Source of the DNA: Nitrospirota bacterium
Lineage (GTDB): Bacteria > Nitrospirota > Thermodesulfovibrionia > Thermodesulfovibrionales > JdFR-88
NCBI GenBank assembly: GCA_021789215.1
Contig: JAJYJS010000009.1
Coordinates: forward strand, 1 to 64,000
Length of the DNA stretch: 64,000 nucleotides
Direction of reading: 5' to 3'
The notes under the pieces were generated by a model that worked only from the letters and a program-made list of their open reading frames with translations, did no database searches and was not told where the DNA came from. Each line of letters starts with the position of its first letter. Position 1 is the stretch's first letter. This document shows, piece by piece, positions 54,185-61,671 of this stretch. The translations under genes were made by a program, and so were the position numbers.

Positions 54185-57028
54185 TCAAAACATGCCTATG
54201 GAAGACATCATCTTCCTGATGCCGCTGAAGTCTTCATCCGATGCCTCCATGAACCCGGTGTAGCCGGGATCGATGGATTTCAGCACCGGGGAATCCGCCC
54301 CGCTCGAATTCAGCTCGGCAAGGGCCTTCTTCAGCCTGCGGACAGTCTCCTCATCCGTTTTGCCGGACACTATGTTGAACTCCGGTATCTCAGCCGAGAA
54401 TTTCAGGAATGTGAGCCCTTTGGCCTTGTACTTGTATGCGGTGGACTCCATCAGCCCGCCCGCATCGAATTCGCCTTTCAAGACAGCATCGGCGACGTCG
54501 TTGTGATGGCCCAGGTAATTGTAGTAGGAAAGGTCTTTGAGGTCGATGCCGTCTTCAAGCAGCATCGCCCTGGGCACTATGTGGCTGGACGTGGAGTTCT
54601 CGTCGCCGAAGGCGAACGATTTACCCTTGAGGTCCTTGAGCGATTTGATATGCCCGCCTTCCCTGGCCACAATAACCGAATGCTGGAAGGGCTTGCCCTC
54701 CCTCAGCGCCTTCACCAGCACCTTCACCCCGTATGTCTTGTTGGCCAGGATATAAGTGGATGGCGTCATGTAGCAGAAATCCACCATTCCCTGGCCTATT
54801 TCCTTTATGGCGGACTCAAAGTTCGAAGCGACCCTGAGCTCCACCTTCCTGTCCAGCTTCCGGGTAAGGTAGCCGGCAAGCGGGGCGAACTTCTTGTACA
54901 TCTCGACCGGGGACTCAAGAGGCGTGATGCCGAACCTGATGATATCCTTCCCGGACTCGGACAGCTTGAAACGCTCCATCTCCACGTTCAGGACCTCGGC
55001 ATCCTTGAGCAGCTCCCTCAACGAGCGGTTTATCCTGAAAGAAAGGTCCCGGCTCCGGCCGGGTATCTCCTTTATCTTCTCCACCGATGTCCATATCTGG
55101 TTGGAGCCGAGCTTCTGCTCATTTATAGCCTTGGATATGTGCTGGCTTTTTTCCGAGACCACCTCTATCGCGTTGGATATCTGGCGGCTGCTCTCAACCT
55201 GCTGGCTCGTGGTGTTTCTGACCTGGATGGAGGCGTCCCTCATCCTGTCAGCGGCAGTCGCTATCAACGCGACCCCTTTTGACTGCTCGGAAGTCGCCTG
55301 GGCCATGCGTCCGACCATTATCCTCACGCGCTCCAGCGATTCTGAAACCAGCTTGGCGGATTTCGCCTGCTCAGAGGTGGTCCGGTCTATCGACTTCACC
55401 ATCTCGGAGGATTTTGTCGAGCCCTCCAGTATCTTCTTGAGCGACCCCCCGGCCTCCCTGGTTATGGATATCCCGTCATCAACAGCCTTGATCCCCTCCC
55501 TCATCGCCTCGCCAGCCGTCTTGACCTCCAGCCTGACGCCATCTATGAGAGAGCCTATCTCCTGGGTGGAAAGCGCCGTCCTTTCCGCGAGGCTCTTTAT
55601 TTCATCGGCAACGACCGAAAAGCCTTTCCCCTTCTCCCCGGCCTGGGCGGCGAGAATGGCCGCGTTCAGGGCAAGGAGGGTCGTCTGTTCGGTTATTTCG
55701 TCTATGACTGTAAGTATCTTCCCTATTTCCTCTGAGCGGGTATCGAGCTTCTTGACAGCCTCACTGGTCTTCTCGACGGACGACTTTATCTTCTCCATGC
55801 CCTTTATCGTCTTGTCGATTGAGGAAACACCAAGGGTGGAGGCCTCTGTTGCGACCCGCTCGGAGAAGGTTGCTGAATCCCTGGCCTTCTGTTCCACTTC
55901 CTTGATTGAATGGATTATCTCCTCGACGGCTGAAAGCGTCTCGTCGGAAGTCTCCGCAAGCTCCTTGGCCCCTCCGGCCACCTCCCTGAGGGTTGCGGAG
56001 AGCTGTTCTATCGAGGAGCCTGTCTCGTCAACCGCTCCCGAAAGCTCGGTGGCCACCGTGGAAATGCTTTCGATGCTGGCGGCAATCTGCTCCACGGACG
56101 CGGCCGTCTGCTCCATGGACGCGGCAAGTCCGTCCACGCTTTCGGCTATCTCTGAAATGGAGGCGTTCAGTTCCTCGACGGATGTGGATATGTCGCCGAC
56201 CGCTTCGCTCTCAAGCTGAGTGAACTCTATCATCCGGCCGGAGTCCTTCTCGACGTTCTCGGTAACGTCCTCTATGCGCCTTGATATCTCCTTCACGCGG
56301 CGCAGTATATTGCTTATGGACGCGAGCGAGTTCCGTATGGAGTCCTGCAATTTGCCTATCTCATCTTCCGAATGGATGCTGGTCCTGAATGAAAGGTCTC
56401 CTTCGGCCAGTTTCCCTGCGGATTTTTCTATGTCCTTCACCGGCGCTATGACAAACCTGTTGAGTATGTACCAGAAGAGGACCGCAAGCAGGATGGCGCC
56501 GATTGCGCTGCCCGTGCCGATTTTGTAGGCGAACGCCTCTATCCTGCCGTATTCGTTGTCCAGCCTGGCGGACACGCGGACGACGCCCAGTATGCCGGGG
56601 AAACCGGAATGGCAGACCTTGCACTGCGGCTTGTTCTCAAGCGCCCTGTACAGTATGAGCCTGGTCTTGTCCTTCTCGAGTATGGGGCCGCCTTTTTCCT
56701 TGAGCCTGTTTATCATGTCCATCGCTTCCGGCGCGGCGCCGTTCTTGAAGGCCTCTTTCCCCTCCCAGTTGAAAAGCTTGACGGATTCGAGCGCCTTCAT
56801 CCTGCCCTGTTCGGGGATCATGAGCTTGACCACTTCGCTCTTGCCGGTCAGCATGGCGGTCTGTATGTCATTGAACAGCACGTCCGATACTGCATTGAGC
56901 CTTTGTTCCGCAAGCTGGTAAACGTCTTCACGCTGTTGGATCAGCACAAAGAAAGTTATGAAAATAATCCCCATGAACAGGATCAAAAAGCCTGCGCCAA
57001 GGATCTTGAATTCAAGCTTGTTTTTCAT
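54185..57028 (-). CDS. Chemoreceptor with CxxCH periplasmic sensor and C-terminal PhnD-type binding domain
   Basis: This 947-residue protein is built from five parts. Membrane helix 1 (about 9-30) leads to a periplasmic domain (about 31-170) with a single haem-c attachment motif CKVCH (136-140). Helix 2 (about 172-194) and a HAMP domain follow. The MCP signalling rod (about 230-690) has its tip at [30 protein letters not shown] (447-476). A complete PhnD/PtxB-type periplasmic-binding-protein domain (about 696-947) ends the chain, with [12 protein letters not shown] (808-819), YMTPSTYIL and LGHHNDV as the phosphonate-contact regions. MCP topology places this last domain in the cytoplasm. An AAGGAG site precedes the ATG, which overlaps the upstream cheW by 17 bases. 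Confidence 0.93.
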
Positions 57029-59776: not shown

Positions 59777-60697
59777 ATGCTCGAAAAGACAGACAAGATA
59801 TGGATGGACGGCAAGCTCGTCAACTGGGATGACGCAAAAATACACGTCCTTACCCATTCGCTTCATTACGGGCTTGGCATCTTTGAGGGGATACGCTGCT
59901 ACAACTCCAAAAAAGGCCCGGCGGTGTTCAGGCTGGAAGAGCACGTCAAGAGATTTTTCAATTCCGCGCATATCTTCAACATGAAGCTGCCTTTCTCCGA
60001 AGAGGAGATAGCCGGCGCAATCTGCAAGACCGTAAAGGCCAACAAGATGAAGGAATGCTACATCAGGCCGCTTGCCTTCTACGGGTACGGCGTGATGGGA
60101 GTGTCTTCCAAGGGCTGCCCCGTGAATGTTTCCATAGCCGTATGGCCCTGGGGCGCATACCTTGGAGACGACGGCCTCGCCAACGGCATACGCATGAAGA
60201 CGTCCTCGTTCCTGAAGGGCCATGTAAATTCCAACATGTCCATGGCCAAGGTGAGCGCGTATTACGTGAACTCGCAGCTTGCCAAGCAGGAAGCGCTCTC
60301 CTGCGGATATGACGAAGCGCTCCTTCTGGATACCGAGGGCTATGTCTCGGAGGCGACCGGGGCCAATATCTTCATGGCGCGCGACGGCGTAATAAAGACA
60401 ACCCCTCTCACTTCCATACTCGAAGGCATAACCAGGAACACCGTAATCGAACTGGCCGGGGAAAAGGGGTTCGATATTCGCGAAGAGAGGTTCACGCGGG
60501 ACGAGATATACATAGCTGACGAGGCCTTCCTTACCGGCACAGCCGCGGAGATAACCCCGATCAGGGAACTTGACGGGAGGACTATCGGCACCGGCAAGCC
60601 CGGCAATATAACAAAGGAGCTTCAAGACCTTTTCTTCAACGTGGTAAAAGGCAAGAGCAAAAACAGGAAACACGAGCGCTGGCTCGCTTATCTTTAA
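59777..60697 (+). CDS. ilvE: Branched-chain amino acid aminotransferase
   Basis: IlvE interconverts leucine, isoleucine and valine with their 2-oxo acids using PLP. The 306-residue fold-type IV protein has [13 protein letters not shown], the PLP lysine at about 158 in SMAKVSAYY, and [21 protein letters not shown]. Size and motifs match the IlvE group. It precedes a TatA-like gene after 141 bp. Confidence 0.93.
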
Positions 60698-60799: not shown

Positions 60800-60838
60800 A
60801 GAACTGTACCGCTCAGATAAAACGGAAGGGGGCCGGTT

Positions 60839-61141
60839 GTGTTAGAAGGGCTTTTTCAGCCCATGCATATAATTATAATTCTTGTCCTTGCGCTGGTTTT
60901 TTTTGGCCCGAGGAGGCTGCCCCTTTTTGGAGCGGCACTGATAGGCTTCTCCATAGCCATGTTTTTCATGGCCATCCCGATGATGGCCATAACGGGTTTT
61001 ATGGCTTTTTGCGCTGGCATTGTGCTTTTAAAGCTCTTCCTGCCCCGTTCCCGGGCGGAAAAAATCAAACCAAAAAGAAACAGGCAGGTCATGGAGATAG
61101 AGGCGGTCGAGACCGAAGCGCCTGAAATAAAGAATTCCTGA
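60839..61141 (+). CDS. TatA-like protein with a second hydrophobic segment
   Basis: The 100-residue protein opens like TatA: a short start, a membrane helix (IIIILVLALVF, about 11-21) and the hinge FGPRRLP (22-28), all characteristic of TatA/TatE. In TatA an amphipathic helix then lies along the membrane; here residues about 33-68 are strongly hydrophobic (AALIGFSIAMFFMAIPMM...GIVLLKLFL) and look like a second transmembrane segment. A basic/acidic tail follows. It could be a divergent Tat component or an unrelated protein sharing the motif. A GAAGGGGG site lies six bases before the GTG. Confidence 0.6.
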   Translation: MLEGLFQPMHIIIILVLALVFFGPRRLPLFGAALIGFSIAMFFMAIPMMAITGFMAFCAGIVLLKLFLPRSRAEKIKPKRNRQVMEIEAVETEAPEIKNS

Positions 61142-61203
61142 TATTTTTTGCGCCTAATCCGGGCGGGAAAACTGTTATAATGAGATTTCGGGGTCTTTGA
61201 AAA

Positions 61204-61671
61204 ATGGACCAGACAGACAAAAACATCCGTTTTATGAAGGCGGCCATTGATGAGGCCGCAAAGGCCGTCCCCGAAGGCGATGTGCCTGTTGGGGCGGTGC
61301 TGGTTGTGGACGGAGAGATATTGGCCGCGGCCCACAACCGGAAGGAGTCGTCAAACGACCCCACGGCCCATGCGGAGGTACTGGCCCTGCGGGAAGGCGC
61401 AATGAAGCTTGGCCGCTGGAGACTCAGCGACGCGATACTTTACGTGACCAAGGAGCCCTGCCCGATGTGCGCTGGCGCAATGGTGAACGCGAGGCTTGGC
61501 GCACTTGTTTATGGATGTGCCGATAAAAAAGGCGGCGCGGCGGGGAGCCTGTTCGATATCCCCTCCGACGGCAGGCTTAACCACCAAGTGCATATAGAGT
61601 CCGGCGTGCTTGAGGACGAATGCCGCGGTCTGCTTAAGGGCTTTTTTTTCGCAAGACGAATGGCCGTTTGA
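61204..61671 (+). CDS. tadA: tRNA-specific adenosine-34 deaminase TadA
   Basis: TadA converts A34 to inosine in tRNA-Arg(ACG). The 155-residue protein has the zinc deaminase motif with His56 and Glu58 (TAHAEVLALRE) and Cys86/Cys89 (EPCPMCAGAMVNAR). Its stop is one base before tRNA-Ser(CGA), so gene and tRNA are probably on one transcript. Confidence 0.93.
   Translation: MDQTDKNIRFMKAAIDEAAKAVPEGDVPVGAVLVVDGEILAAAHNRKESSNDPTAHAEVLALREGAMKLGRWRLSDAILYVTKEPCPMCAGAMVNARLGALVYGCADKKGGAAGSLFDIPSDGRLNHQVHIESGVLEDECRGLLKGFFFARRMAV

Follow-up and report, generated by a model that had tools for sequence, protein, structure and literature searches.

The window analysed here is the first 64,000 bp of contig JAJYJS010000009.1 (forward strand) from a Nitrospirota bacterium (GCA_021789215.1; 2.2 Mb draft genome, 89.31% complete, 50 contigs), and near its right end a TatA-like open reading frame (ORF) lies between an ilvE-type and a tadA-type gene (Table 1). 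Codon statistics trained on eight genes of the window, which themselves score 0.19-0.49, give the TatA-like frame 0.21 per codon vs -1.03 to -0.03 for the five other frames; the middle part of the ORF is only weakly gene-like (0.106), which counts against the reading preferred below. An opposite-strand open frame of 159 codons (60856-61335, -) overlaps the gene and probably does no more than mirror the coding strand.

Table 1. The TatA-like gene, its parts and its neighbours, in window coordinates.
Feature	Codons	Position	Strand	Remarks
ilvE-type aminotransferase, upstream neighbour		59777..60697	+	Pfam Aminotran_4, 170 bits
Shine-Dalgarno-like GGAAGGGGG		60824..60832	+	Read from sequence; 6 nt 5' of the TatA-like GTG start
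TatA-like ORF, 100 aa, GTG start		60839..61141	+	Pfam TatA_B_E match
TatA-type short transmembrane helix	10-22	60866..60904	+	Polar H10, then 12 hydrophobic residues, I11-F22
Hinge FGPRRLP (F22-P28; R25, R26)	22-28	60902..60922	+	Sequence, panel comparison
Former amphipathic helix	29-47	60923..60979	+	Charged positions now hydrophobic; P47 ends helix
Further hydrophobic segment	48-69	60980..61045	+	K65 the sole charge; probably the third span
Basic stretch (7 K/R in residues 70-82), then acidic tail	70-100	61046..61138	+	Probably cytoplasmic
tadA-type deaminase, downstream neighbour		61204..61671	+	Pfam MafB19-deam and dCMP_cyt_deam_1

The helix-hinge of TatA/E, recognised in a preliminary description made from the sequence, is borne out by N-terminal matches to TatAs and, narrowly, by Pfam TatA_B_E (PF02416), which aligns profile positions 4-29 of 53 to residues 9-34 with 22.4 bits vs a cut-off of 21 (22.6 bits in a profile search of the whole genome); the NCBIfam tatAE cut-off (TIGR01411) is missed, with 23.9 bits vs 53.9. 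An FG hinge after the first helix is a TatA/TatE motif, and it is present in the ORF and in the panel of hinge frames surveyed below. The N-terminal helix of TatA/TatE is described as having a hydrophobic run kept short, at about 12 residues, by a polar residue (PMC13186574), and the ORF has both the polar residue and a 12-residue helix. Its first 45 residues match TatA, with BLAST matches ending by residue 47 in a search of 101 genomes, and over the matches covering residues ~1-45 it shares 45-68% identity with FQPMH-type TatAs. With such TatAs of the same phylum (L009, L012 and L002) it has in common the FQPMH segment, the polar residue with 12 hydrophobic residues, an FGP.RLP or FGP.KLP hinge, and the G, A, L, G, S, I, F and A positions of the next helix; it differs from them in carrying no charge at six charged helix positions, one inserted residue, an extra hydrophobic segment and then a basic stretch. 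Compared with TatB, the ORF has the TatA-type start in common but lacks the long charged amphipathic helix, and TIGR01410 covers residues 11-29 only (17.5 bits, cut-off 56.5). When the first 34 residues of 49 sequences are placed in a tree, the ORF groups with L012 and with L078 (support 0.64 and 0.75) and away from the TatA on contig C48 of its own genome, with support too weak for a claim of gene transfer. Derivation of the ORF from TatA is supported at the level of sequence.

The strongly hydrophobic segment reported earlier does occupy the place of the amphipathic helix, although it is longer than the roughly 35 residues first given: the longest uncharged run comprises residues 27-64 (38 aa), and the hydrophobic stretch runs from residue 29 to 69 (about 41), with K65 its only charge before the basic tail. 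A survey of hinges, made with no charge filter, collected 48 distinct frames in which a hydrophobic segment precedes a GP..L(P/L) hinge and 30 or more residues follow; the C43 TatA of the same genome has no GP motif and is not among them. In the 30 residues that follow its hinge the ORF carries 0 charges, and its best Kyte-Doolittle mean over 19 residues is 2.22. The corresponding values are 7-15 charges and -0.68 to 0.56 for the 46 ordinary TatA/B among the 48 frames, and 6 charges and 1.58 for one chance non-TatA frame (in L007). With Hessa apparent free energies, the best 15-residue window in residues 27-50 of the ORF sums to -1.49, and the sums after the hinge in a panel of 47 TatAs, mostly of FQPMH type and pre-filtered for at least four charged residues after the hinge, have a median of 14.68 (8.57 to 18.13).

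A hinge-anchored profile of 18 positions was built from the same panel, and residues 29-48 fit it best with one insertion, I35, scoring -1.33. Same-letter shuffles average -46.9 (sd 9.1) and 0 of 20000 reach this score; among 1250 natural uncharged hydrophobic 20-mers none does, the best scoring -23.5. The strong support comes from this hinge-anchored test only, with a panel filtered for charged helices, and the score of an unanchored local HMM is equalled by 220 of 5000 shuffles over residues 29-48 and by 1000 of 5000 over residues 29-70; both points count against the preferred reading. Two weak PDB matches, 2l16 (TatAd, E 0.03) and 2lzr (E. coli TatA, E 0.32), both place the I35 insertion, and in the alignment to E. 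coli TatA, G36 corresponds to G33 and F42 to F39. Of the 12 uncharged consensus positions of the amphipathic helix 8 are identical in the ORF, and none of the six charged ones is kept (E, K, R, E, K and K have become L, F, A, M, F and M, respectively). The FK motif retains F42 and has F43 in place of the lysine, leaving the ORF without the charged amphipathic helix of TatA/TatE. Given the profile result and the agreement of the PDB matches on I35, the amphipathic helix seems to have kept its apolar positions while its polar side was rewritten, so the helix described as replaced appears to have received no foreign segment. Five of the six charge-to-hydrophobic changes need at least two nucleotide changes from any codon for the consensus residue. 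A simple frameshift is disfavoured as their origin: against the 36 of the 47 panel TatAs with equal spacing to the hinge, DNA identity after codon 35 has a median of 0.44 in frame vs 0.15-0.31 at eight other offsets (single shifts).

For residues 47-100 no recognisable relatives were found in profile, phage-protein and genome searches; PHROGs matches (best E 0.0045, function unknown) and matches to SMR transporters (E 0.04) in this half were taken as hydrophobic noise. Under the positive-inside rule, which is well established, R25/R26 and the seven K/R in residues 70-82 would put both flanks of the hydrophobic stretch in the cytoplasm, with an even number of passes between them. The rule is stated in PMC11867995. 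The stretch would then form a hairpin turning near P47, and the charge-stripped helix is probably inside the membrane, not on its surface, since its charged residues are lost. Because about 41 hydrophobic residues with basic flanks on both sides are long enough for two crossings, three spans (N-out/C-in) are likelier than two helices. The membrane topology untypical of TatA that had been put forward is retained as to an extra membrane segment, suggested by hydrophobicity, and changed as to its number of spans, probably three rather than two. TatA-type proteins are described as single-spanning (PMC5777986), and no multi-span TatA appeared among the open-licence PubMed Central papers listed in literature searches; where TatA/TatE are single-span N-out/C-in proteins, the hydrophobicity of the ORF suggests more spans. 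Structure prediction, which the preliminary description had proposed, gave from the single sequence (AlphaFold2) one continuous helix over residues 3-67 with low global confidence (mean pLDDT 71.9, pTM 0.30); it contains neither hinge nor hairpin, and this counts against the preferred reading without settling the topology.

Whole-protein searches (E 0.001) matched 28 of 101 genomes and, in the phylum, 71 of 395, the own genome included in each, and the matches other than the window gene are ordinary TatAs (fetched loci judged by sequence, the rest by match range). Match ranges end by residue 47 in the 101 genomes and by residue 52 in the 395, except for two longer alignments, of which G362 is an ordinary TatA (77.6 bits) and G401 is a noise hit, interrupted by in-frame stops and without a TatA motif. 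A scan of contigs from 84,980 species, which reaches close relatives only, yielded two ordinary TatAs, and plasmid, phage and viral-contig searches yielded no relative of the ORF. When 176 genomes of the order, its own included, were searched with the C-terminal half, the self-match alone was convincing; inspection covered 20 loci with self, down to E 0.13, and the 19 others, the best of them at E 0.001, resemble frames on the opposite strand, unrelated frames, or membrane proteins of rhomboid-like and other kinds. Within the family (12 genomes) 38 TatA_B_E matches exceed the cut-off, and the 37 other than the ORF reach at least profile position 37. Across 47 genomes of the order (E 0.01, own genome included) the ORF is the sole TatA_B_E match ending at the hinge among 137 (a sum of per-genome counts), the next shortest ending at position 36. 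Weak TatA matches in 8 of 11 family relatives were rejected as orthologues on their mobA-like/alr context and their retained charged helices. The family search also gave matches below the cut-off (E 0.11-0.72), some of which end near the hinge; most are in long frames (8 in frames of 248-1044 aa), and they were taken as noise.

A tadA match is present in 10 of 11 family relatives, and in 7 of these 10 ilvE stands directly upstream with no TatA-like gene between, the distance from the ilvE stop to the HAE codons of tadA being 210-349 nt, whereas the window has 671 nt. Translated in six frames, none of these seven gaps matches the TatA profile (best 2.3 bits vs 45.1 for the window), and G002, G005 and G008 have other genes upstream of tadA. 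Homologues sharing the two-helix form, a search for which had been suggested, were not found within the collections and sensitivities used, nor was any orthologue of the charge-stripped ORF, which counts against the preferred reading. On the sequence evidence, the charge-stripped TatA variant is real and unusual, and is present here in one draft genome only.

The genome does carry a Tat system, a point on which the preliminary description had made its assignment depend: a profile search found one tatC on contig C45 (PF00902, 245.1 bits) and, besides the ORF, three ordinary TatA-type genes, on C45 beside tatC, on C48 and on C43. The C43 TatA sits between MobA-like and alanine racemase genes with NiFe-hydrogenase genes nearby, and the hydrogenase small subunit on C43 begins with a Tat-type SRRDFMKF, a signal identified by eye in the same frame as the Pfam-matched part. 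No tat gene adjoins the ORF, with ilvE and tadA on either side and tatC elsewhere, and neither neighbour was recognised as a Tat substrate; both observations count against the preferred reading.

We tentatively favour, at a probability of about 40%, a diverged TatA paralogue whose amphipathic helix would now be membrane-inserted and followed by another hydrophobic span, serving as an accessory subunit, anchor or brake. The modified Tat component or Tat regulator suggested in the preliminary description may still apply. The N-terminus would lie outside and the RR hinge and basic tail inside, with three spans. TatA is described as binding a TatC TM5/TM6 site through the polar residue of its helix (PMC5201420), and helix 1 of the ORF could still dock on this polar-cluster site or join TatA assemblies, such Tat binding being entirely conjectural. 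An AlphaFold 3 model of TatA rings has the surface helices ordered by the FK motif (F39/K40), and F39A is described as giving irregular, inactive assemblies and as dominant negative (PMC13186574). Lacking a surface helix and the FK lysine, the protein of the ORF should not complete a transport-competent assembly. With its docking side kept and its surface helix lost, it may be an accessory, non-transporting or inhibitory subunit, taking up TatA/TatB sites and acting there as a fixed anchor that cannot be extracted, or as a brake. Competing models are discussed for the movement of the TatA amphipathic helix with respect to the membrane in the course of transport (PMC13186574, PMC6708511); immersion of this helix is proposed to preserve membrane integrity without cargo, and G33 is described as critical (PMC6708511). 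It is a more speculative and unlikely proposition that the ORF is a Tat component of more than one span, a TatA that evolution has fixed in its membrane-inserted form by moving the amphipathic helix into the bilayer, so that TatA assembly would gain an intrinsic inhibitor or a stationary point of nucleation. As a natural TatA relative with its charged positions rewritten to hydrophobic ones, the protein would be a ready-made probe for TatC docking, dominant-negative effects and topology.

The closest competitor, somewhat less probable than the favoured accessory subunit, is a TatA duplicate that has left the Tat system and now serves some unrelated purpose as a small protein with several membrane spans, its TatA features kept by descent. 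The location between ilvE and tadA away from the tat genes, the loss of the charged helix positions and the lack of recognisable relatives for residues 47-100 all suit such a protein, but the positions important in TatA are kept (polar residue, 12-residue helix, FG hinge, and the equivalents of G33 and F39). We consider it unlikely, though like the lost Tat role a serious rival, that the frame has no selected product and reflects a decaying duplicate, a recent acquisition or an assembly error. Its occurrence in a single, incomplete draft genome and the weak middle codon signal would fit, as would a local GC that falls to 0.47 and the ORF's third-position GC of 0.57 vs 0.71 in ilvE and 0.67 in tadA; however, the frame is intact and preceded by a ribosome-binding-like site, and a helix that turned hydrophobic at all six charged positions yet conserved 8 of the 12 others, mostly through multiple nucleotide changes per codon that a single frameshift does not explain, speaks against it.

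Least probable of the three, and distinctly improbable, is a chance recombination that fused TatA residues 1-28 to an unrelated hydrophobic membrane segment. The Pfam match does end at residue 34 and the BLAST matches by residue 47, beyond which nothing recognisable is matched, and the unanchored HMM score is weak, yet the hinge-anchored score of residues 29-48, unreached by shuffles or natural hydrophobic segments, means that a foreign part could begin only at about residue 47.

The mobA-like/alr locus holds a divergent TatA gene in 8 of 11 family relatives (L129-L136), whose counterpart in the window's own genome is the C43 TatA (L003, L092) and not the window gene. These TatAs score 17.9-33.6 bits, two of the eight below the Pfam cut-off, and hydrogenase-type genes are visible nearby, by eye, in four of the eight stretches (L129, L130, L131 and L135). 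Like the ORF they are drifted TatA paralogues with altered hinges, here eroded (e.g. FGKGR, ITGFSR), but they keep the charged helix after the hinge. Elsewhere in the window, a methyl-accepting chemotaxis protein (54185-57028, -) with HAMP and MCPsignal domains carries a C-terminal phosphonate-type periplasmic binding domain (PF12974, 201.1 bits), which stands after the signalling domain, where a cytoplasmic location is expected.
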